From a virus, in the IMG/VR virus record IMGVR_UViG_3300020442_002506, positions 1 to 51,071 of that record: a DNA stretch of 51,071 nucleotides; one strand, given 5' to 3'. Below are positions 18,999 to 49,266 of this stretch, in pieces (the stretch's first letter is position 1; the number at the start of each line of letters is the position of its first letter). A program made the translations under genes and the position numbers. Under the pieces are notes generated by a model. That model saw only the letters and a list, made by a program, of their open reading frames with translations, was not told the DNA's origin and ran no database searches.

Positions 18999-19336
18999 TA
19001 TCTCGTTACACCTCCTCTAACAAGAACGGTTCCCTCAACAGCTCTGGTTCTAGTGTCACCAGTTCTAATAACTAAATCGTAAACATAACGACCTGGTTTC
19101 AAGGTGCTAGTCAAAGTTGCACCCATAGATACCGTGATTACGCCATCGGTTCCGACACCAGCATTTGTAGCAAAGGGAGTGCTAGTTGTGGCAAGAAAAT
19201 GTTTTCTTAAAGCAGCACTATGACCATAACCAGTTAAATCTAAAACACTGTCGGATGCCGAGTCTGCTAGTGTGAAATTTTGACTAAAATCAGCACCGAC
19301 ACTTATGCTAAGATTGGATACATATACGGCAGCCAT
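18998..19336 (-). CDS. 112-aa beta-sandwich structural protein
   Basis: This 112-aa, Thr/Ser/Val-rich protein is probably a small beta-sandwich. The pattern VGADFSQNFTLADSASDSVL followed by LDLTGYGHSAALRKH and then GRYVYDLVIRTGDTRTRAVE is the kind seen in phage baseplate and upper-baseplate Ig-like domains (BppU-like N-terminal regions), in which a short linear polymerisation-type domain ends with a VxGxVxVxGG strand. A GATAAATA late promoter lies just upstream and would start the transcript for this gene, the 78-aa protein, the fibre and the neck genes. A baseplate or fibre-attachment role is inferred from position. Confidence 0.72.
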   Translation of the reverse strand: MAAVYVSNLSISVGADFSQNFTLADSASDSVLDLTGYGHSAALRKHFLATTSTPFATNAGVGTDGVITVSMGATLTSTLKPGRYVYDLVIRTGDTRTRAVEGTVLVRGGVTR

Positions 19337-28226: not shown

Positions 28227-31200
28227 TTACCTCTTGCTCAGAGCACCTGTGTCTCTGAGACCAACGTCTCTTCTTTGGAATGTGGGATAAGTTGTAAGAC
28301 CAACTTCAAAAGCATTACCATCGGAGAAGAATTCTAATGGTGTAGATGCTCTGTCAATACCAAAGATACGTCCCCATGATATCTTACCAGCAGGTTCTAA
28401 GTAAGAACCAGTCGTGGCAACACCAACAACGTTAGTGTCTGGATCAACATAACATGTGATAAGTCCAACCGTTCCAGAAATATTAGCATAATATAATTCA
28501 TAAACATTATCAAGTTTATCTGTAGAAATACCAATCACATTTGTAGTACCAATACCAACAGATGTTGCCGATCCAACCAATGTAGTTAGTCCAGTTCCAA
28601 CTCCAGTATCGGAAACTACAATTCTATATCCAGGCAAAAGTTTTTGCCTTTCAATCTCTGTTGGAACATCTTGAAGATCCAATTGGAATACAATTCCCAA
28701 ACCTTCAGCAGGAATACTCATGTTATATTGAGAAGTAAATCCAGTGGTGTTAAGAACATATGCTCTATCACCATCGGCCGCCGAAGTTTGAATTGTCATT
28801 GCTGTGGGAATACCAACACCAATAGTGGAGGTTTCGACACCAACAGCAGTAGTTATGTCATAATCAGTAGACAAATCAAATTCAATAATTTGTTCATTTT
28901 CACCACCAACAACCAACATCTTAGATCCATCTTGACTGATTGAGAAGTCATATGGAGCATTATCATCTACAATGGTGTGATTTTGTACATATCCAATTGA
29001 GGTAATGTCATATGGAATTGTAAGTTGATAATGATAGAAAGTAGCAGTAGCTGGATCAAGTGTATAAACTGTACGACCGACTCCAGTAACAACCATTGCT
29101 CTATGTGCCTGAGTTTGGTTGGCAATTGAAATCTCTGTGCTAACTCCAGTTGCTGCAATTGATGTAAGATCCCAAGCAGTTCCTAAATCAAATTGATTTA
29201 ATTGAGTTACAAATGGTGCCTGAGCACCTTTGCCTACTGTATACAGTTTAGTTCCATCAGCAAGGAAGTAAATATCATATAGTTCAGTCACACTACTACG
29301 AATATCAACAGTATTGCTCCCATTAATAACTGCTGTATTGATTTTGTGTGGTGTTGACATTGTATATTCAGTGATCGTTCCACCGGCTCCAGCAGCAAAG
29401 ATGCTAGAACCATCATCCTTAACTGCTATAGAGACTGCTGTGTTGATACCTGTAGATACGTCAAATCTATCATTTGGAGTTGCCTTAGTAACATCAAATG
29501 GGAAGAATTCTTCCAATCTGGCAGCAGATGTTGTGATGCCAGTAATCAGACCAGTGTATCCCTCAACTTCAAGATTTGTAATACCACCAACAGATTCAAT
29601 ATTAATGGTTTCGGTAGAACCAAATCCAACAGTAGCAATGCCAGTTTGAAGCACTCCACCAAAATTAGTATCTGTTCCATCAACACCAAGGAACAGTGAT
29701 GTGTCATCAACAAATATTTGTGTGTCACTAGTTGTAACATTTTTAATCACACTTGCTGTTGGATAAATTTGAGCCTCAATTGAATCTCTTTCTTTTGAAA
29801 TAAATTCACCATTCAATATCCTGTCAACCTTTTGTTTGGTCCAAATTATTGGTTTATTAGTTACCTGATTAACACCCTCACCTCTGTAGAGAGTGGTTTC
29901 GGTTTCACTGGAAGAAGTAATACCAATAACTGTTCTGGTGGATTCTTGAGAACGATTTTCTAAAGTATTTGGTGCTAATCCAAATTCAATCAAAGGTGTT
30001 CTCTTTATAAAGATATCATCACCAGGTTTGATTGTCTCATTGATATTCGTGAACAGACTATCTGTACCAACCTTACCTCTATAGAAGAAGATAGATATTT
30101 TGTCCTGTGGTACTGGTGGTTCAGTAAACACAATTGATGTGCCGCCATCAAAGTTGTATGCTGTGCCAGGTTCTTGTAAAACACCGTTGATGAACACAAT
30201 CAACAGAGATTCGAGATCAATTAAGGCAGAATCAGGATCATTCTTATCAACTTCAAAACTCAATGTTTGATCATTGTATGATAATGGGAATCTAGCTCTT
30301 AGTCCATCTTGAAGAGCACTAATGTCATCAATGTAATCAAGTTCACCAAATTGCCAAGATGAGAATGTATCTTCAAATGTATCAAGGATTTCAATCTCAA
30401 ACTGTCGGAAATTGTCACCAACGTTAGGATCTGTTGCCAGTCCAACGACAGTCACCTTATCACCGGCTCTAAAGGCATAACCTGGTTTGGTAATTCTAAA
30501 CTCCTTAATTTCAAACAGAGTAGCACCAATACCAGATCTTACAATTCCACCACTTTCATAAGTATGAGCGATCGTACTAATTCCAACATTTGTAGTGAAT
30601 TGTTGTAAATCTGTATCGATAGACAGAACACGATAATCAAATCCTTGAGTTCCATCTGGGAAAATGGTTGTGGTCACACCAGCGTGTGGTGCTGTACATG
30701 CGAAACTAATATTTCTCAGTTGTACAAACTCATTAAGTCTAGGTACAAAATCTGGTGCTGTTACTGTGGCAAGACCAGTGGTTTCGTCATATTCAAAGTT
30801 TACAATTGGTTTTTCTTGGAAAAATGTGTTGATACCAATAACGTCGATAGTTACCGACATTCCAATACCAGTCTCTGAGGTATTACCAATAGCAAGTCTA
30901 GAAATACCAGTAACTGGAAGATTTTCATAACTTGGAGAATCAACAAAAACTCGTGGATTTACATATCCAGTTCCACCAGAAACGATCGAAACAGCAATTG
31001 TTCCACCAGCACCTACAGTAGCAGTAACTTCGGCACCTGTACCAGCTCCACCACCAGGATGGGCATCAACAGTGATTGTGTTTGTGGTTACAGAAAGAAT
31101 TGCGGTTACAATTCCAGCAAGTGGATCTGTTGATCTTGGATATGGATTCAAAGATCTAAAATCATCAGAGGAGCATGTGAATACAATACCACCAGTATCA

Positions 31201-34200
31201 ATTCCAATAGAATTACTAGTAGTTAATCCGTGATTTGGGATAGTCAGAACCAAAAGTCCTGTTGGTGAATCATAAGTTGCTCCAGTGGCAGTAAAGGCAG
31301 GTCCATCAAAACTTGTTTGTCTAATAGATCCAACACCAGCACTTACAAATCTATGCTCAAAAGCAATGTCTGTGACAGCAACTCCAGGAACGGTTACATA
31401 TCCACTACCAAAGTTAGCAGTTGTCCACTTGGCAAAGTTACCACTACCAACATAAGTATGAGCAAATGTAACTACACCTACCTGAGACTTGAATTGTGTT
31501 GCTGAAATGATTTCATCAACGTAATATGGACCAGCTGGTTTGACCTCAAATGCATTTCCAGCAGTTGCTCCAGATCCAGTGTAAGTATGGGCAATTGTAG
31601 AAACACCAACATCAACGACGAATTTATTCGTACCAGCAATTCCAAGAATTGGATATCTGTTTGTGTTAACACCAATTGCTTTTTTACCCGAACTTCCATC
31701 AGGGAAGGTAGTTGTAGTTACTCCAGCATGTGGCAGAGTACAAGAGAATCCAATATTCGACAGATCAACATATCTACCAATACTAAAGTTGTGGGCTGAA
31801 GTTAATCCAACAGTAGCAATGCCTGTTTTGTTATCATAATCGAAAGAACTAATCGTAAAGTTAACTCCTTGCTCAGATGGGAAAACATAAACATTGTGGA
31901 AAGGAGATTCAGATGGACAAGAGAACTCCAGTCCACTAAAGTTAATTTTGTCACCAACATTTAGTGTATGGTTTCCATCTGATGTAACTGTCAAAATACC
32001 TGTCAGATTATCATAGGCAGCTGTAGAAATATTGACTGTTGTTCCTGTCGTTGGAATACCAGTAACTTCAGTAATTACACCATTAGTTGCCGTAGCGACA
32101 ATTTCAGCTGGAACAATTGGAGCATATCCCAATCCATTTGTAGAACCAAACGAAATAGGAACTCCACCCCTTGGAAGTTGATTTAGGTTAATATCAGTTT
32201 CATCAACAATTTGACCACCGGCAGCTGACAAAATACCAGTAAACACAACACTGCTTATACCAGCATTTTCTATAATTGAGAAATTATTATTTGTGTTATT
32301 TGGAGTCGAAGGTGCTTGGAAAATACCATTGATTAAAACTAATCCATTTCCTCCAGTAGATCCGATGCCAGTTACATCAGTACCAATAGATGTCAATCTA
32401 AACCTAGAAGTAACTCCATCAAATTGATCAGAGATATCGTCAAAGATTAAATTGCTATCATAATTCTTTCTTAGATAAACACGACCATTGAAAGAAGATC
32501 TAGGTATGGTTAAACCTCTTTCGTCTAAGTCTTGTCTACCAGCACCTTTTGGAGCAGATGTGAAATGAATTTTACTATTAACAATATTGAATGCTCCACG
32601 ATAAACACTAACGGCATCTTCAGCACTATGAGAGGTAGCACTGCTTCCAACAAATCCTCTTGTAACTTCTACGAGAGGAATGTCACCATCTGCAGCAACA
32701 CCAACGTCTGATGTGCTGCCCAAACCAACAATATTAATCTTGACATATTCATCATTAATCTTGAGCAAATCATTTGGTCTAATGGAAGAAATTCCACTCA
32801 GTTCAAAAATAGTTGCTCCTGCTCCGATAGCATTTGTGAGTGTAAAATCAAGAGGAGTTTTACTAATTGGAGATTGAACAATACCATCAATACTGATTAT
32901 TGCCTTTTCCTTATTCTTGACCATGGAAAGAACGTGCTTATTGCCCGTTCCAACAGATGTAAATGTAACACCTGTGCCTGCTATGGCATTAGCAGTGGTA
33001 ATAGCAACTCTAAATTGAGAAGCATTATCTCTAATAGCATAAACTGTTTGTGGTAGTCTGGCTGTGCCAACACCGGTATCATATACAAGTCCAGTGGCAG
33101 CTACTCCAACCAAGTTGCTACCAGGAGTGTAACTTAATTCTTCACCATCTTGGAAATAATGCTCTACGGTAAATACACCATCAGAAGGTCTAAGAATAGA
33201 AGAATCTGGGTCGAAAGTTTTAGCAAAAATATCTACAGAGTTATGTTTGGCATCAAACTCTAATACTTCTCTTTGATTAATACCAAAGTAAGTAACTTGA
33301 GCTACATTTGATCTAACATTTCCATATGTAAGATCACCGATTCCACTAACACCACCATTGTTATCAAGATCTCTATAAACAATTTCATTGAAAGTCTTGA
33401 TATCAACATCACCAGTGATGTCTGGATAGAACTTAACATCAATGATATTGTCAACACCATAATCAACTCCGAAAGTACCAACTCCACTAGTGCTACCAAT
33501 CGATAAGAAAGGATAAGTTAGAATATAAAGGTTCTTTCTTTGATCATCGTTTACAACGTAAACTTGGTGAATCGCTTGTGTTTCACCGATGGCAACTTTT
33601 ACAGTTGATTTAACAGAAGCATCAGTAATACTACTAATACCCAAGATGCTTGTAGAAACACCACTAGTTGTAGTGGAAAGACCAGCCTCAAGTCTTGCAG
33701 TTCTTTCAGAACCATCTATTGTTCCTGTAAATTTGAATCTGTATGTTCCAATTCCAGCACCACTAGTATTGATTCCTACAGTTTGAGTTCTTATTCTTAC
33801 ATCATTAGATCCATTGTTAGTAAAGGAAAGTGTAACAACACCAGAATCAATAGATGAAGTAAAGGATCCAATAAATGGACCAGAGAATCCCGAAAGAGAA
33901 ACTCTAGTGTTAAATGCTGCCAGTTCCGTCAAATGAGTGTCACCAGCACTATGGGACAATACTAATTCATAGTAATCAATATCATTTGTCAAACTATCAT
34001 AAACTTCTACAGAGGAATATATGCTATCGGTATGTAAAGTGCTGAATCCAATAACGGTTGCTGATGCTCCGGCAGAAACAGTGTCTGTTGAGGAAATTAA
34101 ATCAACAAATCCAACATTAGCCGACCCTACACCTGCTGTAGTATCATCAAAGAATGTTTGTAATATTTTAATATCATAATCAGTATTGTATGGTTCAAAT

Positions 34201-37200
34201 GGAGTGAATCTCAAACTATATTGATTATCATCAGAATCATAAACACCATCAAATTCTCCAACACTATCACCAAGACCAACCTTTTCCAAGGCAAAGGTAT
34301 CTTGATTATTTGTTATCAGAACAATTTCTTTCAGGGACAGTTCATTGCTATTTGTAGCATCAACTGTTTGAACAATAAACTTATTAGTTTGTCTACCTTC
34401 AGTCCACTCACCAGTATCAGTAAAGTCAATCAAGTCTTCTGAGTTTTCATTTAAGAAATTGTCACTAATATCATCAATAGAAAGAACTCTGTTTGATTTG
34501 TTCAGGATAAAATCACTGACTTTAATATTTTCAAATTCAATAGATTTAGAAGTGTTAGTTGTAGCCTCAACATCTCTAACATAATCAAAATCATTTACCG
34601 AATCTACTCTCTTTGCTCCATCATAAACATCAATGACCAAGAAAGGATCTTCCTGAGCAGTGGTGAAAGAAGCACCAACATTACCAGTTGGGTCTATCTG
34701 CATGTCAACGAAGTTTCTATATCCAGCTGGGTGAACAATATCATTCACATAACTGATAACATCGTCAAACGATTTTACACTTTGAACAGAATATGACATT
34801 CTCTGATAGTAGTCATTATCAGATGTTACTTGATAATCCTCATCTAAGAATCCAATTTCGTTACTCCAACCCTTAGTGAACTTAGAAGTAGAATCTACAT
34901 TAAATCTACCAACTTTACTGCTCAAATCAGAAATTGTACATCTAGATCCACTTACAGAACCAGTTAGTCTATCACCAACTTTAATTGGTGTAATTCCAGT
35001 GACATTCAATTTACCAGTCAAATCATTGAAACTACTTACAAAGAGATCAACAGATCCAATGACAAAATTATCATTCAAGAATAATGCTTCTCCAGGTATA
35101 AATGTAGATGATTTTCTTTGAATAGAAAATTCTGCCAAATTATCCTTTTTAATTACATTAGCAAAGAATCCTGGATTTGTGATTGCAATACCAGTATTAT
35201 TTCCCCCAGAAACAAAACTAGAAAGGCTATATGTAAGAGTATTAGGATTAGCAGAACTATTATAGTTTGTAATTGTAAAATAAGCATAATCATAGTCAGA
35301 TGAGTTGTGACCCTGACCATCAGTAGATGCTAAACCAATACCTTCAACAAAAATTAGATCTCCATTAGCAAATGGTGCTGTTGTAAAACCTAAAATTGGT
35401 GTAGAAATACTAAGTGTAACTGTGTTATCTGTACTTGAAGCAACACTAACAATAGAAACACCATTATCATTGTTTATAGGAATAATTCTATAAACACTTT
35501 CATCATCAAGACCAACTGGATTTCTATCAATTCTAATACCAGCAACTTCTACACCATCTATAACTGTTGTTGGACTTACAGAACTTCCAGCTAGTTCTAC
35601 TGTTCCATCAAATTCAGGAACAACGGTGCCCTCTTCAGGATCAAAGAGAATCAAACTGGGTGGAGTTAGATAGTTTCTTCCACCAGTAACAACCGTTACT
35701 GAATCGAGAGTTTGATAGTCCTGAACGGTCAATTCATTAGGGATGGCAGCTTCAGGTTTTAAGGTTTTGTCAGATGGATAAGAGAATCCCTGAGTCAGTA
35801 GTCTTACACCTTCAAGTTTTCCAATGCTACTTGAATTCAATCTTAAAATAGCACCGACACCTTCATCAGAAGTTATACTGGAGATGCTAGGAACTGTTCT
35901 ATAGTCAAGACCTTCGAATATAAGTTTGACATCATTAATTCCACCAGTTGCTGTTAAAGAATCTGTCGTATATTCTAGTTTTTCAATTTGATCTCTTACA
36001 TAAGAATCTCTTTCTGGTGGAGAATTCAAATTAACATCGAAAGTATTGCTGCTTACATCAGTAACTTTATAAGATCCATTATATTTGCTATTGTAATATT
36101 GAATTTGATTATTACTTAAAACACTAACATCAGAAGTGCTGATATATCCACTCTTCTCAAGATTGTAATATAAGATGGATGGGAAATTATCAGAATATTC
36201 TAAAGTTACTCCAGCACCAACTGTTCCTGGAGTGCCAAATTCTGTAATTAAGAATTCAGTAGTTGATCCTGTAGATACAACTCTGTTCTTATAATCATCA
36301 GTGTAATATATTCTAAAGTTATATCCAGTAAGAGTAGAATCTGATAAGTTAAATTCTACATTGTTGTTTTTAAAGACTTCTAATGGAGGATTAATCAAAG
36401 AGAATGTATGATCATGTCCACCAGCAGAAGTTAAAGTGATGGTTCTAGGGGGAGAAGAGAATATATCTTTCTTGGTATCTGCCAGTTGGAAATTATTCGT
36501 ATCAACCGTATATACAAAGTAAGATCCTGTAGTAAGACCACCAATTGATTCACTAGTTTCATAGTAGACTTTATCACCACTTATAAATCCATGAGAATTT
36601 TGAGTAATGATGTTGGTCGTTGTATTAATACCACTAGAACTAATTGCTACTGGATTGATCAGTAGTTTTTCATCTACAATTTTAACTGTTACAGTACTAG
36701 CAGCACCAACTCCAGTCGTTATACCTGGTTTTACGTTTAATTCAATTTTATCACCATTAACAAGTCCATGAGATTCTCCAGTAGTTACTGTTGCTTTTAT
36801 CTTCTTGATATCAGCAGTAACTTGTGGATATTTTGTAGTTAACTTATAATCATAAGAATCAGTTCCAGTAACGTCACGGAAGAAAACACTGGGTCCATTC
36901 AATACCGTAGCAATACCAACATGATCTTTACTTGATACGACAGCATAAACTACGCTTGGCATATCAAATTTAGATTGTGATGGAGAGGTTGAAATGCCAA
37001 TTGCTCCAGCAGCAGATCCAACTGTAAAATCAAGTTCTTGATTAGTTACAAATGGATGATTTTGTAAGAAAATAGATTGTGTTGGAATAGATCTTATTGT
37101 AGTAATTCCATTGAACTGATAAGATCTTGTGGTGGCAATACCTGCTGTAGATCCAATACCAACAACTTCAAATGGATTGAAGAAAATTTCATCCTGTTCT

Positions 37201-40200
37201 CTGGATTGGAAATATGGTGTATTGATTTTTATTTCAAACCTTTGAGGTAAGAAATTAACATTTTCAGTTGCAGTATGTGCTATGCCAGATTCATTAGCAT
37301 ATCTTTGAACTCTTAATATTCCATCTGCCTCAAAGACATTCAAAATACCCATGGTTTCATTCGATACTGTAATCGAACTACCAAAAGAAACTGGAACAAA
37401 AGAAACTTGAATGTCAGTTACCATACCACTGACACCTGTTGATCCAACTCCAACAACTAATTTTGCTTGATTAGTTCCGATTCCAGCTTCTTGAGGTCCG
37501 TTAAGACCAGCAACGAAAGTTGATAATCCAGTAACCTGAACAATATCATTATCCAATAAATCAAAGTTTGGTTTAATGGAAACTTCTACCGTGGAATTAT
37601 TTTTCCAAGTTACAATAGCGTTTTCATATGTTTCTTCTGTAGAAGCAATGCTAGTAATAGTTCTACCATTAATTCTACTGATTTCAGCAGCAACTCCTGT
37701 TCCGACCTCTGTCTCATCAAAGTTAATATTGTCCCCAACAGCATATCTGGCATTACCTGTAGAGGCAACACTGATAAAGTCAACAGAACCACTACTTAAG
37801 TCATCAACAATTGAATCTTGTGGGAATATCTTATATGGTTCAATAACAAAGTCATAAGCAGACTGTTGTTGAGCAATTTTATGTGGGAAAGTATTTCTAA
37901 TAAGTTTTGAATTATTAAAATCAAAAGACTGATCAATTTTATCAGCTGGATTTATATTTTCACTGATCGCCTTTGATCTAAATGAATTTCCAATAAAGAA
38001 GGGGAATTCTGGATTGTTAGAAGAATCAATAGTTCCATAATAAGCATACACACCTTGGGGGAATTCATTGGTAATAGAGAATCTACCATTGAACTCATCA
38101 AGATCTCCAGAGTTGTTAAATTTAAAGTCATCAACAAAGAAACCTGCTGGGAAAGTTACGGAACTAGGTCTATTTTCAATATGAGTGATACTTTGCACAT
38201 AACCAGATTCCATTCTTCTGGTTCCACTCTGAATATCTTCTGGATCATTATATCCAAAAGATCCATAAATTGGATTTCCATCATATGCCCATCCAATCAA
38301 TGGTGAGTGGAAAGATCCACTATCTTCAAAAGCATCTCTTAAAGTTATACCATATCCAATAGCAGCATATTCAAGACCTTGATCAGGTGTTGGTGAAATA
38401 ATCTCACCACTGTTATTATTATTTTTAGCAAACTTATTGACACGTAAACGTCTTACGAAACCATTCAGATTTGCCCCAGAACCGACAGAATCTGCCCTAA
38501 TGACAGTTGTATTGGCATCGTAGTTTACACCCCCACTCAAGACGACTACAGAGGTTACTATACCAGCACTGTTTATCTGTGCTCTCAGTCTAGCACCACT
38601 ACCTGTGGTGGCAATTCCCACTGCATTTGACTGAACTACTAATTCTGGTGGTGAAGTATATCCACTACCACCACTAAGAACAAATACACTATCAATTCTA
38701 CCATTTAGAACAACTGGTTTTACTTCAGCTCCTTGTCCACTGTTAATTTCAATTTCAGGAGTTCTTTCAAAATTTAAAATCTCAGATCCATAATCAGTTC
38801 CTGGTTCGTAGAGATAAGCATCAACAATTGGACCACGGATAACAGGTGTTGCCGTAAACGTACCCTCTTGTTGTTGTGTGGTTACAGCACTAATAGTTAC
38901 AGCTACATCTGGGTATTTAAAGATATGACTACCAACTCCAACAGTTGTCATATTGACAAATTTGCCTCTGTTGAAGTCAGTTAAATCTGTTCCAGCAGCT
39001 CCAGCATTAGACAGTCTAAAAGTATCACTATCTACGACTAAAATCTTGTATTTTGTATCCGATGATAATCCTGAAACAGCAGTATCTGAGAATTCATATT
39101 CTACAATATCACCATTAGAGAAGTTATGATTATCAAAGTTAACTGTATCATATTCAGTTCTAATACCACTTGACTGAACAATTAGTTTTCTATTAGAATA
39201 TCCTTGTCCAGGGTTAAGAACATTAATCCTATCAATCTTTAGCTTCTTCTCTGTAGTTCTAAACTTCATTACTCCAGAATTATTTTCTGTAGTAATACCA
39301 ATAGTATTAATACCAGTTAAAGCATCTAGTTGATTGTTATAAAGTTGAATCGTTCTGCTGTTGATAAATCCAGCATAGTATATACTTCCCGTTTGTAACG
39401 TTAAACCTTGAATCTCATCATTAGATGTATTTGAAGAAATACCCAAAGGTTGTGCTAATTGAGCACTGTAAACAATTGGATCACCAGTTTGGAATGGATG
39501 AATTGAATCAAAAGTAATTGTATTAGCAGTGATGTCAACACCACCATTTTGTGTAATTGGTTGAGCATCAAAGAAAGCTTCTCTGAATTCAGATGCTAAA
39601 GTTGCAGAAGCTCTTGCTCCAGAACCATTACCACCAGTAATGTTAATTGCTAAAACTTCTTCAATATCAAAGTTAACTGGATCAACTAAAATATCTGTGA
39701 ATGATCCTTCGACAACTGCCTGAATTCTTGCTGTGGTTCCTGTAGAAACTGATGGATTATCAACAACAACATTTGGAGGAGTAACAGCATCATAATTAGA
39801 ACCACCGTTGAATACTTCGGTTCTATCTAATGGTCCATAGAAAACAGAATCATCAACTTTATAGTTAACAATTTCTACACCATTAATCAACATTCCAGTT
39901 GATCCTGGTAATGTCTCTTCTTTAACACCATCAGTCAATCTTTGACTTAATGGGAATTTTTTAAGAAGTTTTTGTGGTTGAACCTTACCTTCTCTTTGTT
40001 CTGCTAAGGTAAAATAATGTGGTCCATCTATAACCTCATTAAAACTTACAAAAGATCCTGCTGCCAAGAAAGATCTACTTAGAGCTAATTTACATCTATT
40101 GTTATTTGGTGGTGGTTCTTTTGAAACATAATACACACCTGTAGACAATCCAACAATTGGTTTTACTCCTGGACCGGGTTCATAGTAAACCTCATCACCA

Positions 40201-42116
40201 GTGAAGAATGGCAGAGCATCTTGGAAAGAAAGTGTATTATACGATAATGTATTTGAATCAAAGTTCAGAATAGATCCAGAAGATGTGGATGCTACAGAAA
40301 TAGTTACAGATGTAATTGATGGAGAGATAGCATAATTTGGTAGAGAGTTTGAAGCAGAATATCCAAATTCTTCATTTTCAATATAAGTATTGAGAACATC
40401 GGAAGCAACTACGTTATTACCGAGAGCAATCGGAGTTACGTTACTTGTTGCTGTATTAATTCTTTTTCTTACATCATAAGTGCCAAGTGGATTGATTTGA
40501 GAATAATCACCAGCACCTAAAGTTATGGCATTATCTGTAAGGTTTACATTAACAACTTCTAAATTAGATGCTACAATATTTTGACTGTTTCTATCAAGAA
40601 TATCTACAAAATCAAAAAGTTTTAAACTTGATTTGGCAATAGGTGATTCAAGATTGAATGTAGATCCACTGAATGTAGATACAAAATATCTTGCAGAACT
40701 ATTGTAAATCCAAGAATTGAAAAATACTTTGGAGTATGAAGTATCTTCTGGATTATCATAAACTACTTTACCAAGACTCTTTACAGAAATCTTAGAACCT
40801 TCAACGGCAGAGAAAATGCTTTGATCTTCTGTGTCTAATTCACTTAGAACACCTGTTACAAAGAATCTTACAGGTTTTGTAAGATCATTTGATTCGTAAG
40901 CATATACAAAAGTATCTTGAATAACTTCAGATCTGGGAGAGATGTTTTCAATTACACCTTCACATCCAAAGAACTGAGTAATAGTTTTGTCGGTATAAGT
41001 TACAGTATTAACACCAACGTTAAATATTCCAGCTTCGGGGAATCCAATAGTTGAATCTACAGTTATAATAGAACCACCAACTCCAACTTCACCAATTGTA
41101 AAACTACTACCAGGAATAACAAATTTACCTTCAACCAAAGGAGAGTCATCAAATCCAGTAAACAAGGAAATTTTATAGTAAGTCTGTATACCAATGTTCT
41201 CAGAGGACCCTCTAGAGAAAATTTCAATTTCAGAAACTGGACCAGAAGCAGCTCCAACTCCAATACTTGGATTAGCATCTTGGAACAACGTTGTTCCAGA
41301 AATTAGAGCAGGGTTTTGAGTGAAAAGAGATGTGCCAGAGATCAGTCTTGGATCACCACTAATCAGTCTTGCTACGATTATTTCTCTACGAATATATTCG
41401 GCAAATGATGGTTTTGATAAAAATTGTTCTAGATCAATTACTTTAGAATCTATTCCATACAAAACCTTCATCAAGATTTTGATAGATTCTTCTGTTCCTT
41501 TTGTTTGATATAAACTCTTGGATTCTTTAATAAAGTTATTGACATCCAAACCAGATGCTACTGGGGTATCTTCTAGACCAGGAGCATATAATGCCTTGAG
41601 TTTTTTGTAAAACTCTTTTAGGAAGAGAGCACTTAAGTTTTGAACGGCAGTTCCTGAAATGTGCTCAGAAGCATCACTGGTAGAGAAAACTAATTCACTT
41701 GGATCACTAGGATCACGATATGATGTGATACCAGAAAAACCACGTAAGCAACCAGTAAATGAATTTGTTGTTACGCCAGTGTATGAAATAACTTCACTGT
41801 CAAGTCTAATAAGACCATATTCAGTAGGAAATCCTTTTGTATTTGTTACAAAGATTTCAGTGTCAGTTGTTGAAATGCCAGCAGTAATAGCAGACATTCC
41901 AGAAATTATATCTGGGGTTAAACTATCTAATTTTATATAACTATCTAAATTTTCGGCAAGATCAACTGGACCTCCAGGAAATTCCTGTGAGGTGTAATAA
42001 GACTTTAAAAAGTCTATGGTAAGAGGATTTTCTTCCTTGATAAACTCAGGAACCTGACTATCAACAATTTGTTGAATTTTGACTCTTGAGTTAAAGACGG
42101 AATCTGTGTTTATCAT
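28227..42116 (-). CDS. gp7: Giant gp7-position baseplate wedge protein (4629 aa)
   Basis: One uninterrupted frame of 13.9 kb lies between gp6 and gp8, the place of gp7 (1032 aa in T4), the wedge protein that binds gp10, gp8 and gp6. The N-terminal 300 residues (IQQIVDSQVPEFIKEENPLT, LKALYAPGLEDTPV, YQTKGTEESIKILMKVLYGI) look like the conserved core of marine T4-like homologues. Most of the rest is beta-rich repeats: at least nine GG-x-GY...P units, YTG...C-x-RG modules, and two copies of an INGVxQxPG module (near residues 3262 and 3989). Residues about 4215-4470 resemble a beta-propeller with DGSKMLVVGG-type and EFDLSTDYDITTA-type strands. No frameshift is seen. The gp7 name rests on position, and the size and domain set are unlike T4. 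Confidence 0.82.
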   Translation of the reverse strand: MINTDSVFNSRVKIQQIVDSQVPEFIKEENPLTIDFLKSYYTSQEFPGGPVDLAENLDSYIKLDSLTPDIISGMSAITAGISTTDTEIFVTNTKGFPTEYGLIRLDSEVISYTGVTTNSFTGCLRGFSGITSYRDPSDPSELVFSTSDASEHISGTAVQNLSALFLKEFYKKLKALYAPGLEDTPVASGLDVNNFIKESKSLYQTKGTEESIKILMKVLYGIDSKVIDLEQFLSKPSFAEYIRREIIVARLISGDPRLISGTSLFTQNPALISGTTLFQDANPSIGVGAASGPVSEIEIFSRGSSENIGIQTYYKISLFTGFDDSPLVEGKFVIPGSSFTIGEVGVGGSIITVDSTIGFPEAGIFNVGVNTVTYTDKTITQFFGCEGVIENISPRSEVIQDTFVYAYESNDLTKPVRFFVTGVLSELDTEDQSIFSAVEGSKISVKSLGKVVYDNPEDTSYSKVFFNSWIYNSSARYFVSTFSGSTFNLESPIAKSSLKLFDFVDILDRNSQNIVASNLEVVNVNLTDNAITLGAGDYSQINPLGTYDVRKRINTATSNVTPIALGNNVVASDVLNTYIENEEFGYSASNSLPNYAISPSITSVTISVASTSSGSILNFDSNTLSYNTLSFQDALPFFTGDEVYYEPGPGVKPIVGLSTGVYYVSKEPPPNNNRCKLALSRSFLAAGSFVSFNEVIDGPHYFTLAEQREGKVQPQKLLKKFPLSQRLTDGVKEETLPGSTGMLINGVEIVNYKVDDSVFYGPLDRTEVFNGGSNYDAVTPPNVVVDNPSVSTGTTARIQAVVEGSFTDILVDPVNFDIEEVLAINITGGNGSGARASATLASEFREAFFDAQPITQNGGVDITANTITFDSIHPFQTGDPIVYSAQLAQPLGISSNTSNDEIQGLTLQTGSIYYAGFINSRTIQLYNNQLDALTGINTIGITTENNSGVMKFRTTEKKLKIDRINVLNPGQGYSNRKLIVQSSGIRTEYDTVNFDNHNFSNGDIVEYEFSDTAVSGLSSDTKYKILVVDSDTFRLSNAGAAGTDLTDFNRGKFVNMTTVGVGSHIFKYPDVAVTISAVTTQQQEGTFTATPVIRGPIVDAYLYEPGTDYGSEILNFERTPEIEINSGQGAEVKPVVLNGRIDSVFVLSGGSGYTSPPELVVQSNAVGIATTGSGARLRAQINSAGIVTSVVVLSGGVNYDANTTVIRADSVGSGANLNGFVRRLRVNKFAKNNNNSGEIISPTPDQGLEYAAIGYGITLRDAFEDSGSFHSPLIGWAYDGNPIYGSFGYNDPEDIQSGTRRMESGYVQSITHIENRPSSVTFPAGFFVDDFKFNNSGDLDEFNGRFSITNEFPQGVYAYYGTIDSSNNPEFPFFIGNSFRSKAISENINPADKIDQSFDFNNSKLIRNTFPHKIAQQQSAYDFVIEPYKIFPQDSIVDDLSSGSVDFISVASTGNARYAVGDNINFDETEVGTGVAAEISRINGRTITSIASTEETYENAIVTWKNNSTVEVSIKPNFDLLDNDIVQVTGLSTFVAGLNGPQEAGIGTNQAKLVVGVGSTGVSGMVTDIQVSFVPVSFGSSITVSNETMGILNVFEADGILRVQRYANESGIAHTATENVNFLPQRFEIKINTPYFQSREQDEIFFNPFEVVGIGSTAGIATTRSYQFNGITTIRSIPTQSIFLQNHPFVTNQELDFTVGSAAGAIGISTSPSQSKFDMPSVVYAVVSSKDHVGIATVLNGPSVFFRDVTGTDSYDYKLTTKYPQVTADIKKIKATVTTGESHGLVNGDKIELNVKPGITTGVGAASTVTVKIVDEKLLINPVAISSSGINTTTNIITQNSHGFISGDKVYYETSESIGGLTTGSYFVYTVDTNNFQLADTKKDIFSSPPRTITLTSAGGHDHTFSLINPPLEVFKNNNVEFNLSDSTLTGYNFRIYYTDDYKNRVVSTGSTTEFLITEFGTPGTVGAGVTLEYSDNFPSILYYNLEKSGYISTSDVSVLSNNQIQYYNSKYNGSYKVTDVSSNTFDVNLNSPPERDSYVRDQIEKLEYTTDSLTATGGINDVKLIFEGLDYRTVPSISSITSDEGVGAILRLNSSSIGKLEGVRLLTQGFSYPSDKTLKPEAAIPNELTVQDYQTLDSVTVVTGGRNYLTPPSLILFDPEEGTVVPEFDGTVELAGSSVSPTTVIDGVEVAGIRIDRNPVGLDDESVYRIIPINNDNGVSIVSVASSTDNTVTLSISTPILGFTTAPFANGDLIFVEGIGLASTDGQGHNSSDYDYAYFTITNYNSSANPNTLTYSLSSFVSGGNNTGIAITNPGFFANVIKKDNLAEFSIQRKSSTFIPGEALFLNDNFVIGSVDLFVSSFNDLTGKLNVTGITPIKVGDRLTGSVSGSRCTISDLSSKVGRFNVDSTSKFTKGWSNEIGFLDEDYQVTSDNDYYQRMSYSVQSVKSFDDVISYVNDIVHPAGYRNFVDMQIDPTGNVGASFTTAQEDPFLVIDVYDGAKRVDSVNDFDYVRDVEATTNTSKSIEFENIKVSDFILNKSNRVLSIDDISDNFLNENSEDLIDFTDTGEWTEGRQTNKFIVQTVDATNSNELSLKEIVLITNNQDTFALEKVGLGDSVGEFDGVYDSDDNQYSLRFTPFEPYNTDYDIKILQTFFDDTTAGVGSANVGFVDLISSTDTVSAGASATVIGFSTLHTDSIYSSVEVYDSLTNDIDYYELVLSHSAGDTHLTELAAFNTRVSLSGFSGPFIGSFTSSIDSGVVTLSFTNNGSNDVRIRTQTVGINTSGAGIGTYRFKFTGTIDGSERTARLEAGLSTTTSGVSTSILGISSITDASVKSTVKVAIGETQAIHQVYVVNDDQRKNLYILTYPFLSIGSTSGVGTFGVDYGVDNIIDVKFYPDITGDVDIKTFNEIVYRDLDNNGGVSGIGDLTYGNVRSNVAQVTYFGINQREVLEFDAKHNSVDIFAKTFDPDSSILRPSDGVFTVEHYFQDGEELSYTPGSNLVGVAATGLVYDTGVGTARLPQTVYAIRDNASQFRVAITTANAIAGTGVTFTSVGTGNKHVLSMVKNKEKAIISIDGIVQSPISKTPLDFTLTNAIGAGATIFELSGISSIRPNDLLKINDEYVKINIVGLGSTSDVGVAADGDIPLVEVTRGFVGSSATSHSAEDAVSVYRGAFNIVNSKIHFTSAPKGAGRQDLDERGLTIPRSSFNGRVYLRKNYDSNLIFDDISDQFDGVTSRFRLTSIGTDVTGIGSTGGNGLVLINGIFQAPSTPNNTNNNFSIIENAGISSVVFTGILSAAGGQIVDETDINLNQLPRGGVPISFGSTNGLGYAPIVPAEIVATATNGVITEVTGIPTTGTTVNISTAAYDNLTGILTVTSDGNHTLNVGDKINFSGLEFSCPSESPFHNVYVFPSEQGVNFTISSFDYDNKTGIATVGLTSAHNFSIGRYVDLSNIGFSCTLPHAGVTTTTFPDGSSGKKAIGVNTNRYPILGIAGTNKFVVDVGVSTIAHTYTGSGATAGNAFEVKPAGPYYVDEIISATQFKSQVGVVTFAHTYVGSGNFAKWTTANFGSGYVTVPGVAVTDIAFEHRFVSAGVGSIRQTSFDGPAFTATGATYDSPTGLLVLTIPNHGLTTSNSIGIDTGGIVFTCSSDDFRSLNPYPRSTDPLAGIVTAILSVTTNTITVDAHPGGGAGTGAEVTATVGAGGTIAVSIVSGGTGYVNPRVFVDSPSYENLPVTGISRLAIGNTSETGIGMSVTIDVIGINTFFQEKPIVNFEYDETTGLATVTAPDFVPRLNEFVQLRNISFACTAPHAGVTTTIFPDGTQGFDYRVLSIDTDLQQFTTNVGISTIAHTYESGGIVRSGIGATLFEIKEFRITKPGYAFRAGDKVTVVGLATDPNVGDNFRQFEIEILDTFEDTFSSWQFGELDYIDDISALQDGLRARFPLSYNDQTLSFEVDKNDPDSALIDLESLLIVFINGVLQEPGTAYNFDGGTSIVFTEPPVPQDKISIFFYRGKVGTDSLFTNINETIKPGDDIFIKRTPLIEFGLAPNTLENRSQESTRTVIGITSSSETETTLYRGEGVNQVTNKPIIWTKQKVDRILNGEFISKERDSIEAQIYPTASVIKNVTTSDTQIFVDDTSLFLGVDGTDTNFGGVLQTGIATVGFGSTETINIESVGGITNLEVEGYTGLITGITTSAARLEEFFPFDVTKATPNDRFDVSTGINTAVSIAVKDDGSSIFAAGAGGTITEYTMSTPHKINTAVINGSNTVDIRSSVTELYDIYFLADGTKLYTVGKGAQAPFVTQLNQFDLGTAWDLTSIAATGVSTEISIANQTQAHRAMVVTGVGRTVYTLDPATATFYHYQLTIPYDITSIGYVQNHTIVDDNAPYDFSISQDGSKMLVVGGENEQIIEFDLSTDYDITTAVGVETSTIGVGIPTAMTIQTSAADGDRAYVLNTTGFTSQYNMSIPAEGLGIVFQLDLQDVPTEIERQKLLPGYRIVVSDTGVGTGLTTLVGSATSVGIGTTNVIGISTDKLDNVYELYYANISGTVGLITCYVDPDTNVVGVATTGSYLEPAGKISWGRIFGIDRASTPLEFFSDGNAFEVGLTTYPTFQRRDVGLRDTGALSKR

Positions 42117-44806: not shown

Positions 44807-45049
44807 CTAACCGTTATTTAGTTTTTCTTCTTTGACTTTTTTGAAGTACAATTTATAGTACCTTCCCTTAATTTCTTCCAAAGTTTCCATATCTTCTTTG
44901 AACCCACAGTACTTTAGCATCTGAAAAGCACTCTCAAGTTCACTAATCACCCTTAAAATGTTGGTAGCATGTGGTTCCATGCCTCCAAATACGTATTTTC
45001 TTGAATCTTTCTCTACAAATTGGATATGTTCAGGTTTCTCCATCTTCAT
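44807..45049 (-). CDS. 80-aa hydrophilic protein, function unknown
   Basis: The open frame extends back to a TTG at 45112, but that would overlap the preceding gene by 83 nt. The ATG at 45049, preceded by a GA-rich stretch (AAAGAGAGAGAAA), is preferred and overlaps the 222-aa gene by 20 nt. The product is basic, mostly helical, with NILRVISELESAFQMLKYCG and a Lys-rich C-terminus (GRYYKLYFKKVKEEKLNNG). No family is recognised. It is the last gene before the terminator-like hairpin. Confidence 0.68.
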   Translation of the reverse strand: MKMEKPEHIQFVEKDSRKYVFGGMEPHATNILRVISELESAFQMLKYCGFKEDMETLEEIKGRYYKLYFKKVKEEKLNNG

Positions 45050-45698
45050 TTTCTCTCTCTTTCGCGGTTTTCCAAAAATATTCGTCTTCTCGACCCATTC
45101 CAAGTCGTTCAAATCCGTTTTCTACCTGATAATATTGAGTAGAAACCTTAAAATCCGGCATTTTTGGATCAACAGGCGTCAAACTGTTGTCATAAATCCG
45201 CATTCTGTTGTTTGGATAGAGTGCGTACTGCCCATTTTCGAGTTCAATGAGGTTATGTGACTTATGTTCCGCGGGATTTTCACTCGTAGCATAGTCAACT
45301 ACATCAGGATCTTGATGATAATTGTCTAAAGTACAGATATAAGTTCCTTTTTGAATACCAAAATCCCGTGTGTACAGTTCATAATCCATAGAACCGATGA
45401 ATTGTTTCTGAACTGCTACTACTCCATAGTCCATACAATTCCAAAACTGAAGATTTGGAAGGTTCATGTCAGGATTTGGAGTCTCTGGAGCAGATACAAA
45501 AGCACTGATGGGAAGTTTATCGTACATTGCCGCATATTCTGGCAAATAAGTCTCAAAATAAAAAGTACGTCCAGGTATGGACTTTGCCGATACCCAGACG
45601 CCTTTGACGAATTCACCATGACCAGATTGATGATCCGTGAGATATTCTTTACGAACCCATACTTCCATAGAAGGAAGGTTACAAATAAGAGCAGCCAT
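45030..45698 (-). CDS. Conserved phage protein of unknown function (222 aa)
   Basis: This 222-aa protein has conserved-looking blocks MEVWVRKEYLTDHQSGHGEF, VKGVWVSAKSIPGRTFYFET, LQFWNCMDYGVVAVQKQFIG and YALYPNNRMRIYDNSLTP. I recognise this pattern from many marine T4-like phages, always as hypothetical. There is no signal peptide or membrane segment. It starts one base after the stop of the oxygenase-like gene. The presence of many aromatic residues and an NNRMRIYDNS motif suggests a folded beta-rich protein. I make no functional claim. Confidence 0.85.
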   Translation of the reverse strand: MAALICNLPSMEVWVRKEYLTDHQSGHGEFVKGVWVSAKSIPGRTFYFETYLPEYAAMYDKLPISAFVSAPETPNPDMNLPNLQFWNCMDYGVVAVQKQFIGSMDYELYTRDFGIQKGTYICTLDNYHQDPDVVDYATSENPAEHKSHNLIELENGQYALYPNNRMRIYDNSLTPVDPKMPDFKVSTQYYQVENGFERLGMGREDEYFWKTAKERENEDGET

Positions 45699-46427
45699 TT
45701 ACTTTTTCACATAATGGAAGTTTACCTGGTGGAAGTAAGCATCATCACTTTCTACAATCAGATCAATTGGATCTCTCCAATGCATCTGCTTACCATTATA
45801 AAGAACGGCATCACCAGGTTTCGTTATATATGTGACATCGAAAAAACAAAGTGTGTAATGATCACTCAATCCTCTTGAAGAAATGTTCACGGATACGGTA
45901 ATGTCATCTTCATCACTATCAGAGTGGAATTTTAGTTCCGAACCTTCGTAATAAAAAGTTTCACACCAATAGTTACTTTTCAAGTCAACAGAAAGTATAC
46001 ATTCCATATAAGTCTGAACCTTATCATTCAAATCCTTAAGGAAGGGATTATTGATGACTTGTAGATGACCGTAATGAGCATCACGATCATCTGGATCATA
46101 CTCACAAGTATAGGTGCCTACTTTCTTACCTGTCGGAAGGGTGAAAGATGTCTTTCCGGTTTCTCCTTCGACCTGATAGGTCTTATTTGCATTGGACTCG
46201 GTGTTCTCAACGAAAGTGAGTTTACCAGTCAGTTTCTGGTCACCCCATTGTACGATTGGAGAAGTACGGTATCGGTCAATATCTAAGACCAAAGATTCAA
46301 TATAAAAGTGACCCTTCTGTTCAAAGAAGTCCATGGGTCGGATCTTCAGAGGATCACAAATATGTCCATTGATCTTTTTGGGAACATGAAGTTCCAAAGC
46401 ACTCAGATCTTCACCGATAGCACTCAT
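45699..46427 (-). CDS. Probable 2-oxoglutarate/Fe(II)-dependent oxygenase
   Basis: This 242-aa protein ends with a pattern typical of phage prolyl-hydroxylase-like oxygenases: LKFHSDSDEDDITVSVNISS supplies the HxD pair (His168, Asp170), KPGDAVLYNGKQMHWRDPI supplies the distal His216, and FHQVNFHYV follows. The double-stranded beta-helix would be residues about 145-240. The usual Arg that binds 2-oxoglutarate some ten residues after the distal His is not obvious; Arg218 is a candidate. The substrate is unknown, and hydroxylation of a protein or nucleotide is possible. The start overlaps the stop of the 49-aa gene (ATGA). Confidence 0.65.
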   Translation of the reverse strand: MSAIGEDLSALELHVPKKINGHICDPLKIRPMDFFEQKGHFYIESLVLDIDRYRTSPIVQWGDQKLTGKLTFVENTESNANKTYQVEGETGKTSFTLPTGKKVGTYTCEYDPDDRDAHYGHLQVINNPFLKDLNDKVQTYMECILSVDLKSNYWCETFYYEGSELKFHSDSDEDDITVSVNISSRGLSDHYTLCFFDVTYITKPGDAVLYNGKQMHWRDPIDLIVESDDAYFHQVNFHYVKK

Positions 46428-47560: not shown

Positions 47561-48310
47561 TTAGGAGGATTGATAAATCTCCTCCCAGAAGAAGGTGGTT
47601 ACACCATATTCATAATTGGTCCCGGTCGAAGCCACTGCTCTGTTCAGTCTATAAGTGTTAGCACTATCACCATTGGCACCAAACATGATTGTATATGTTC
47701 TTTCATCAGTGCTATTTGGTTTGTCATGATAAACAAAATTACTCATTCTAGGAGTGCTAGAATCATCAGCATCGTAGAAATCACTAATGTAATGATTATA
47801 TTCTACAATACCTTCTGCTGCATTCCGATTATATCCTTCATATCCAGTACGTCGAATAATCGTGGGAACACCATCAACTAACTCGGCAATCTTAAATCCA
47901 GTATTATGAGTATTTGGTTCACCAAATATATTCCAATGAATAGCAATTAAACTATTAGTATACCTTGGAGTAATCGTTACTCTTACGGGAGTAATCTCTA
48001 CAAATCTTTGTCCAAAGTCATTATCCGTTGTTGACCAATTACTACCGTTTGATACTGCCGCTGTATAAGTGACATAACCATTTGTCATTCCATCTGCTCT
48101 ACCATAACCCCTTTGAACTACGTCACCATTTTGTGGTGTGGTTGCAACTAGTACGGCAGCATCTACCTGGGCTTGGAGTCTATCTTCTAATGTAGTAAAC
48201 TGACTGTCAAACTGTTCCTTATTATAAACATCAGATATATCACCCGTTACAAACAGATTACCTTGGATCGTCTTAAACGGTCCCTTACTGACATTTTCTT
48301 CTAGTCTCAT
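47561..48310 (-). CDS. Fibre- or adhesin-like virion protein (249 aa)
   Basis: The ATG at 48310 is preferred over an upstream in-frame TTG because it overlaps the AbrB-like stop (ATGA) and follows a GAGGA ribosome binding site. Residues about 10-60 resemble a fibre shaft start (IQGNLFVTGDISDVYNKEQF) with a short coiled stretch (LEDRLQAQVDAA). The C-terminal 150 residues (FVEITPVRVTITPRYTNSLI, KIAELVDGVPTIIRR, RTYTIMFGANGDSANTYRLN) resemble the beta-sandwich head of phage fibre tips. It stands apart from the main tail cluster and is followed by a glycosyltransferase. A host-interaction role is inferred. Confidence 0.7.
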   Translation of the reverse strand: MRLEENVSKGPFKTIQGNLFVTGDISDVYNKEQFDSQFTTLEDRLQAQVDAAVLVATTPQNGDVVQRGYGRADGMTNGYVTYTAAVSNGSNWSTTDNDFGQRFVEITPVRVTITPRYTNSLIAIHWNIFGEPNTHNTGFKIAELVDGVPTIIRRTGYEGYNRNAAEGIVEYNHYISDFYDADDSSTPRMSNFVYHDKPNSTDERTYTIMFGANGDSANTYRLNRAVASTGTNYEYGVTTFFWEEIYQSS

Positions 48311-48480
48311 ATCTTCCTCAGAATTAAACAATCGTCTTCTTCATCAATTATCCATTCTAATTCATCTCCCTCGTCCCATCCAAGATCCATATACATCCAG
48401 TCTGGAATGATCACTACTGGTTCACCCGTAACAGGATCAATCTCTACAGTCGTAGTTTCATGTCCGAAATTTTTATCCAT
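48307..48480 (-). CDS. AbrB/SpoVT-like small DNA-binding protein (57 aa)
   Basis: ATG 48480 with AGGAT 9-14 nt upstream is preferred over a GTG 15 nt earlier. The product contains VEIDPVTGEPVVIIPDWMYM, DLGWDEGDELEWIIDEEDD and CLILRKI, the swapped-hairpin beta pattern of MazE/AbrB-type domains (IPxxxxxxLGWxxGDxLEW...LRK). Such proteins are common in marine T4-like phages. It lacks the basic loops of classical AbrB and is strongly acidic, so direct DNA binding is less certain. A perfect-consensus promoter lies about 200 nt upstream, giving a long leader. Confidence 0.75.
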   Translation of the reverse strand: MDKNFGHETTTVEIDPVTGEPVVIIPDWMYMDLGWDEGDELEWIIDEEDDCLILRKI

Positions 48481-48682
48481 ATAAGTGATCCTCACACTGC
48501 TTTTATATATGGGAAAAATTTTTTGAAACCGACTGGAATCGTTATAGCGAACTCGATCTGGGTCGTTTATAGCTTAGAGGGACCCATAAAATTATAACCC
48601 CCATCGGCGGCACGAACGGCACAACGAAGGGGGCATATAACTGCCAGCACACTGACACTGACTGTGGAGGATTCACTCCCCC
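48481..48682 (-). other. Structured leader, about 195 nt, between the strong promoter and the AbrB-like gene
   Basis: No gene of useful length is present; only peptides of 20 aa or fewer could be coded. On the minus strand it contains a CCCCC...GGGGG pair (48629-48633 with 48598-48602) followed by an AT-rich run TTATAATTTT, then a GGGTC...GACCC pair and two similar units GCTATAAACGA and GCTATAACGA. This could be an attenuator or a regulated 5' leader. The short stems and long loop make it weak evidence. Confidence 0.4.
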
Positions 48683-48711
48683 ATTATAACACTAACTGTG
48701 AGGACTGTCAA
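48683..48711 (-). promoter_or_regulatory. Perfect sigma70 consensus promoter TTGACA-N17-TATAAT
   Basis: The minus-strand -35 TTGACA (48706-48711) and -10 TATAAT (48683-48688) have 17-nt spacing and an extended TGT before the -10. This matches the bacterial consensus at every position. Two DnaA-box-like sites begin 12 bp upstream. It points to the AbrB-like and fibre-like genes. Confidence 0.82.
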
Positions 48712-48722
48712 GTATACTTACC

Positions 48723-48743
48723 TGTGGAAAAACCTGTGGAAAA
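48723..48743 (-). promoter_or_regulatory. Tandem DnaA-box-like sites (TTTTCCACA x2)
   Basis: Two copies of TTTTCCACA on the minus strand (48723-48731 and 48735-48743), 12 bp apart. TTTTCCACA is the DnaA-box form I recall from cyanobacterial origins. They lie just upstream of the perfect-consensus promoter. Confidence 0.55.
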
Positions 48744-48754
48744 CTAACATTAAT

Positions 48755-48898
48755 TCAAGCACAGTATCTGTCAGCCAACTGCTCATAATGCCCTACTTGA
48801 TCATAATCATCGTCCACATAGTAGTGCTCACAAACCTCTCCCATATCATAGGTTTCGATGATACTTTCATAATCGTCATAAGTGTAATCTTCACCCAT
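48755..48898 (-). CDS. 47-aa Tyr/Asp-rich acidic protein, unknown
   Basis: This small frame (ATG 48898, TGA 48755) has an AGGGG ribosome binding site 8 nt upstream and its own promoter-like sequence. The product is extremely acidic and Tyr-rich (GEDYTYDDYESIIETYDMGE, YYVDDDYDQVGHYEQLADRY), which could mimic nucleic acid. DNA-mimic anti-restriction or polymerase-modifying peptides have this composition, but that is only a hypothesis. The opposite strand also carries a frame here, and the codon composition and ribosome binding site favour the minus strand. Confidence 0.6.
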   Translation of the reverse strand: MGEDYTYDDYESIIETYDMGEVCEHYYVDDDYDQVGHYEQLADRYCA

Positions 48899-48926
48899 GA
48901 TTGAGACCCCTGACTGACACTGTGGT

Positions 48927-48957
48927 ATTATAACATATTTATCACTGACACTGCCAA
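48927..48957 (-). promoter_or_regulatory. Probable promoter for the 47-aa gene (extended -10 TGTTATAAT)
   Basis: TATAAT at 48927-48932 on the minus strand is preceded by TGT. The -35 candidate TTGGCA (48952-48957) is 19 nt away, longer than ideal. A GATAAATA late-type octamer lies between them at 48936-48943, so the site may be used at more than one stage. Confidence 0.5.
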
Positions 48958-49180
48958 TTTATGAGGTTTCACTGACACTTACTGTTCCTGGGGGTTGACA
49001 ACCTCTTCTCGTTATAGTATGCTTGCTAAACTCACAACGACACCGAACATTAAAGTATATTTAATTCAACCTTTTTTAATCATCAAAATATACACATGGA
49101 TACTATCCAAAACTAACAATTTCAGTGCTTAACATTCTCCCAGATCACTGATGCCTACTGTGATACGGAGAAATAACAAA

Positions 49181-49214
49181 GTTTTCCACAGATATGAGAA
49201 AAACTGTGGAAAAC
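49181..49214. repeat. Inverted DnaA-box pair (11-bp perfect inverted repeat)
   Basis: GTTTTCCACAG at 49181-49191 is mirrored by CTGTGGAAAAC at 49204-49214, separated by 12 bp. Each arm contains a TTTTCCACA box, one per strand. The pair could form a hairpin as well as bind a dimer. Confidence 0.7.
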
Positions 49215-49266
49215 TCTACGTTTAGTTTATGATAATTTTATACCGAAAACGCCTCGTTTTTACACC

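Follow-up and report, generated by a model that had tools for sequence, protein, structure and literature searches.

A conserved cluster of host-type DnaA boxes in T4-like cyanophages as a candidate origin of early phage replication

In many T4-like viruses that infect ocean cyanobacteria, one conserved place in the genome carries predicted binding sites of the host DnaA type, and this cluster is real biology. We interpret the interval as a putative cis-acting module through which T4-like cyanophages, the Kyanoviridae and their relatives, would recruit host DnaA, most likely the origin, or an origin activator, of early phage DNA replication, a reading to which we give close to an even chance. 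These phages may borrow the replication starter protein of their host, which to our knowledge is not known of phage T4. T4-like cyanophages are abundant ocean viruses, and a conserved host-DnaA site would tie their replication to the cell-cycle initiator of the host. As to where replication starts in them, only a single theta origin has so far been predicted, in Syn9 (PMC2984593).

A dense box cluster in the window and in cultured cyanophages

The window, meaning the whole stretch of 51,071 bases analysed here, is a 51-kb virus fragment that belongs, judging by its predicted portal (71% identical to that of S-T4), tail and baseplate proteins, among the T4-like cyanophages. Four exact copies of the 9-mer TTTTCCACA lie inside 491 bp of it, at the coordinates given by the initial annotation, and they are the sole exact copies in the record. 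Two form a tandem pair on the minus strand (copy 1 at 48735–48743, copy 2 at 48723–48731), 12 bp apart as first described, and two an inverted pair with a 14-bp spacer (left arm at 49182–49190, plus strand; right arm at 49205–49213, minus strand). The inverted repeat had been recorded as perfect and 11 bp long; perfect it is, but its arms measure 12 bp (AGTTTTCCACAG at 49180–49191 and CTGTGGAAAACT at 49204–49215, around a 12-base loop). Dinucleotide shuffles of the window gave an expected 0.96 copies of TTTTCCACA per window, and four copies anywhere in the window were reached by 3 of 100 shuffles; the informative feature is the clustering of all four in so short an interval. Among four close relatives, namely the window itself and the contigs L102, L143 and L154, all four boxes are letter-perfect in L102, which is 82% identical to the window. 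The tandem pair is confined to these two and absent from L143 and L154, and the inverted pair is retained in L102, L143 and L154 with shifted spacing. The DNA of the site itself showed no similarity to named phages at E 1e-5.

Across 2.9 million viral contigs, a scan for TTTTCCACA-N14-TGTGGAAAA recovered the pair in at least 119, and among the matches listed 116 of the 119 contigs carried ORFs similar to those of cultured cyanomyoviruses. The box cluster is the densest of the genome in six isolates, where it always lies 2–8 kb upstream of gene 25: Syn9 (52,565–52,597, at 52.6 kb), P-SSM7 (45,973–46,004, in a region at 46.0–46.6 kb), S-ShM2 (52,811–52,842, in a region at 52.8–53.1 kb), S-PM2 (19,231–19,264, at 19.2 kb), P-TIM68 (58.2 kb) and S-SM2 (58.1 kb). 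The exact coordinates in the cultured phages Syn9, P-SSM7, S-ShM2 and S-PM2 allow direct coverage and DnaA-binding work. S-TIM5 is a weak case at best, because its densest spot, close to the beginning of the record, has no more than two exact boxes, separated by 208 bp, and T4 and KVP40 contain single scattered matches only. The initial annotation had suggested counting the motif genome-wide and looking for the same cluster in related phages. The count revealed no similar density elsewhere, copies of TTTTCCACA outside the locus being about as frequent as those of a reversed-motif control, that is, at background; the comparison with related phages showed that both position and helical phase are conserved across cyanomyoviruses. 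Two of the three outcomes named in advance as refuting the origin thus did not occur. We found no earlier description of this box cluster in the openly searchable literature.

These counts bear on DnaA titration, which had been listed at the outset as an alternative. Titration by scattered sites is unlikely because box counts outside the locus remain at background. A local sponge, in which the clustered boxes would sequester more and more host DnaA with the growing number of phage copies and bring replication of the host chromosome to a halt, could draw on the concentration here of exact consensus boxes, of which the four host genomes counted hold 8–24 exact copies each in 1.7–3.3 Mb. However, only 2–4 boxes per phage genome cluster at this place, with no enrichment elsewhere, and a sponge would need neither the helical phasing nor the neighbouring promoter and AT-rich block described below; we regard it as quite improbable.

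A second conserved element and the anatomy of the interval

In many contigs a second conserved element, (T)TGTAGTCTTAGCACGC..CCTAACGA.TGTCAACCCC, lies about 50–90 bp from the box pair. Using part of this element alone as bait, we collected a complete set of 105 stretches, which reduced to 58 non-redundant loci. Within 200 bp on one side of the element the commonest 9-mer was TTTTCCACA, present in 44 of the 58 loci and in at least two copies in 43 of those 44; on the opposite side it occurred in 2 of 58. The element-anchored result thus agrees with the box cluster by a non-circular route. Box variants with one mismatch departed from the consensus mainly at positions 1, 2, 3 and 5 (ATTTCCACA, TATTCCACA, TTATCCACA, TTTTACACA and TTTTTCACA). 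Read on the opposite strand, the element contains TTGAC-N-N17/18-TAAGA in 43 of 58 loci, in two spacing classes, and its conserved core extends past the −10. This pattern suggests that the element is a promoter, oriented antisense to every flanking gene and directed at the AT-rich block and the boxes.

In the window, a sigma70-type promoter sequence, TTGACA-N17-TATGCT (48995–49023, plus strand; 10 of 12 consensus positions), runs antisense to the flanking genes and points across the AT-rich block at the inverted box pair; it is followed by TGCTAAACTCACAA. Both hexamers and their 17-bp distance are retained in the window, L102, L143 and L154, while the spacer sequence has diverged. The conserved core GCTTGCTAAACTCACAA (49021–49037, plus strand; family consensus GCGTGCTAAGACTACAA across the 58 non-redundant loci, which were anchored on part of this core) would lie at or just past the predicted start of the antisense transcript. 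The AT-rich tract noted initially is present at about 49049–49096 as a candidate unwinding element and is conserved in four relatives; in other cyanomyoviruses, the 35 bp beside the box pair are 75% AT. From this arrangement we infer the later steps, from binding of DnaA through opening of the strands and priming to the start of replication, along the following lines. Host DnaA would bind the helically phased array of consensus boxes, and the local sigma70-type promoter would fire toward the array, antisense to the surrounding genes, its transcript crossing the AT-rich block; transcription and DnaA binding would together open the duplex, leaving an RNA primer or R-loop at which the phage's own T4-type replisome could load.

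A second promoter sequence lies directly downstream of the tandem boxes: a perfect sigma70 match, TTGACA-N17-TATAAT (48683–48711, minus strand; 12 of 12 consensus positions), whose −35 is retained in L102, L143 and L154 and whose −10 is retained in L102 and L154. The tandem pair is placed as the binding site for an activator of any ordinary promoter might be, which we count against the origin reading, and this pair may serve transcription. The main rival explanation extends this to the whole site, as a DnaA-responsive transcription switch and not an origin: host DnaA on the boxes would activate or repress flanking promoters, so that the early-gene block tracks the replication state of the host. 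It draws on three observations: in the window and L102 a perfect promoter follows closely on the tandem boxes, in S-ShM2 and P-SSM7 a second tandem pair immediately precedes a start codon, and in four relatives a promoter is directed at the inverted pair. Yet L143 and L154 lack the tandem pair although the promoter region stays, the place of the tandem pair relative to promoters varies between phages, and the box-facing promoter is antisense, with no gene to serve. We judge such a switch possible, if unlikely, and continue to prefer an origin or origin activator.

At the conserved position, boxes are present in the 44 anchored loci and the six isolates; the other 14 of 58 anchored loci are boxless at a retained element, and MITS9220M01, S-RSM4, P-SSM4 and P-SSM2 keep the neighbouring element without exact boxes there. 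Because several relatives have the element without the boxes, which weighs against the origin reading, the boxes are not essential in all of these phages, and DnaA is either not universally needed or replaced. In at least some of these relatives other repeats occupy the place, ATTGAGAATCAAT in S-RSM4 and GATATGAATTCGTATT in MITS9220M01. More tentatively, and at appreciably less than an even chance, we propose a composite early origin foreign to T4, in which host DnaA on phased boxes would be triggered by an antisense promoter across the AT-rich block; its box part would be a swappable cassette, exchanged in boxless relatives for other repeats beside the same promoter-like core.

The replacement repeats also enter into a further alternative, that a phage-encoded protein, either an initiator or a repressor, happens to prefer TTTTCCACA. 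The occurrence of ATTGAGAATCAAT and GATATGAATTCGTATC at the same place in boxless relatives would suggest lineage-specific binders, and an inverted pair with one favoured spacer resembles a dimer operator. Against this, the 9-mer is identical to the DnaA box of the host, the tolerated variants include TTATCCACA, TTTTACACA and TTTTTCACA, and no candidate gene was found beside the boxes; we consider a phage-encoded binder distinctly unlikely. The boxless relatives with copies of ATTGAGAATCAAT or the near-palindrome GATATGAATTCGTATC at this spot comprise L620 (S-RSM4), L480, L481, L443, L448, L508 and MITS9220M01 (49.45–49.75 kb).

The description of the interval as mostly non-coding is correct only in part: the two box pairs enclose a 47-aa ORF (48755–48898, minus strand), whose coding frame is conserved in three relatives besides the window and for which a family search returned no match. 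The reported 13-bp palindrome TGGATACTATCCA is present at 49097–49109; we rejected it as a part of the module, since L102 does not retain it and GGATANTATCC-like sites are limited to 3 of the 58 anchored loci. Four 10-bp repeats of the CACTGACACT type are also found as described (48650, ~48914, 48943 and 48970). Between 48650 and 48985, four copies of the repeat ACTGACACT lie near promoter-like sequences, and several are retained in L102. A 62-aa protein adjoining the module (48307–48495, minus strand) weakly matches the MazE antitoxin (E 8e-4, short of the curated threshold).

Candidate binder and box geometry

The 9-mer TTTTCCACA, taken from the start for a cyanobacterial DnaA box, indeed matches the published box of most cyanobacteria, which cyanobacterial DnaA binds in vitro (PMC4674748). 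The dnaN-upstream region of three of the marine host genomes studied (L613, L614 and L615) carries 1–2 exact and several one-mismatch boxes. DnaA domain IV (PF08299) was absent from the 14 phage records searched and present once in each of six host genomes, so that if DnaA binds the phage boxes, it would be the DnaA of the host.

An inverted box pair with a 3–28-bp spacer occurred in 1 of 201 host genomes, that one being a terminator-like palindrome, and since such pairs are practically absent from hosts, the arrangement is not host-derived, a point against the origin reading. A host copy of the phage element was also rejected, 60 of 61 host genomes having none and one giving a weak one-mismatch match. 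Hosts do carry a wider inverted pair, TTTTCCACA-N29-58-TGTGGAAAA, which is found in 62 of 201 host-family genomes, once in each and mostly with a 35–36-bp spacer (examples are L601:1973–2025, L602:2009–2062 and L605–L608). Where checked, it lies 300–560 kb from dnaN, and in MIT9201 and UW140 it stands between genes read as EVE-domain-like and Hsp70-like; it is possibly a DnaA regulatory site.

When cyanomyovirus-like contigs were scanned for any box pair with a spacer of 3–33 bp, spacers concentrated at 3–5, 14–16 and 25–27 bp with few between, a period of about 11 bp (nominal Rayleigh p ~1e-25, which is a guide only, the contigs being related). This period implies that the boxes tend to share one face of the helix. 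The order, orientation and spacing of the boxes vary while the 9-mer stays constant, and phased boxes in variable order and orientation fit what would be expected of a DNA-bound protein array, not of an RNA hairpin. A control scan with the reversed motif likewise gave abundant matches, but among those listed they came from one family whose spacer is always 10 bp and which lacks helical periodicity. In phage contigs (L207–L326) this control motif often forms an inverted repeat, ACACCTTTT-N10-AAAAGGTGT, with the fixed 10-bp spacer in 81 of about 115 sites among the matches listed.

The geometry also weighs on the idea that the inverted repeat encodes a hairpin, either a terminator or a small-RNA stem, in the antisense transcript. 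Perfect 12-bp arms and a 12-base loop would suit such a structure, but tandem, divergent and 3-bp-spaced arrangements occur as well, one fixed 9-mer fills both arms, and no T-run follows. With no Rfam match, and with variable box arrangements ruling against it, we rejected a hairpin or known RNA family, and find this reading scarcely plausible.

Comparison with known origins

Cyanobacterial oriC, located upstream of dnaN (S. elongatus, Anabaena and Cyanothece), shares with the phage site the 9-mer box, the presence of several boxes in a few hundred bases, and AT-rich sequence nearby. Of the features of an oriC-type origin, a cluster of DnaA boxes fitting the host consensus and, beside it, an AT-rich candidate unwinding element (49049–49096) are both found. 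Unlike oriC, the phage site has neither dnaA nor dnaN, its box pairs are phased at 3–5, 14–16 and 25–27 bp in a manner almost absent from the 201 host genomes, and its additional conserved element, GCGTGCTAAGACTACAA, is missing from hosts.

Among the origins of T4, oriF and oriG are primed by R-loops and need motA. Cyanomyoviruses share the replisome and recombination genes of T4 but lack motA (PMC2984593), so the oriF promoter type is not available to them, and the promoter at the cyanophage site is not a MotA-dependent middle promoter but reads sigma70 TTGACA-N17-TATGCT. The likeness, within the same broad T4-like phage group, lies in a promoter firing into an AT-rich block: oriF and oriG require a promoter and a downstream A+T-rich unwinding element (PMC3016281), and in the window a promoter is followed by an AT-rich candidate DUE. 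The cyanophage site differs from them in the missing MotA-type promoter and in the added DnaA boxes. T4 oriF adjoins gene 25, and in cyanophages this gene is a few kb away from the cluster. Full synteny with oriF, which is placed between uvsW and gene 25, was rejected: the cyanophage site is flanked by gene 25 and, upstream, by a gene annotated 'helicase', but this helicase is not UvsW, whose orthologue is ~50–75 kb away in most isolates, so only the nearness of gene 25 remains. The iterons of T4 oriE, repeated short sites near an early-mode promoter that are retained in relatives (PMC3016281), are alike in being short repeats near a promoter and differ in sequence from the cyanophage boxes.

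At the lambda origin, the antisense promoter pO has DnaA boxes downstream, and transcriptional activation of this origin is enhanced by host DnaA (PMC3985674). The cyanophage site likewise combines a predicted antisense promoter with DnaA boxes downstream; initiation in lambda, however, relies on the phage O protein with its iterons, and no counterpart of these was seen at the cyanophage site. As we read it, the anatomy brings together three features that are separate in known origins, namely a promoter followed by an AT-rich element, DnaA boxes, and a promoter running antisense toward such boxes. The DnaA-dependent origin or control hub put forward by the initial annotation gains from the published box, the single dense locus, and the conserved position and phase. 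It loses from the GC skew, in which the suggested check revealed no switch at the site, and this absence counts against the origin reading.

Elsewhere in the window, a single 4,629-aa ORF (28227–42116, minus strand) lies directly downstream of gene 6; the long ORF found at this place in S-SM2 bears the annotation baseplate wedge gp7. Homologues of the stretch 45048–45700 are annotated as purM, ferredoxin or virion protein in S-SM2, S-SCSM1 and S-BM3, so public annotation of this stretch is inconsistent.
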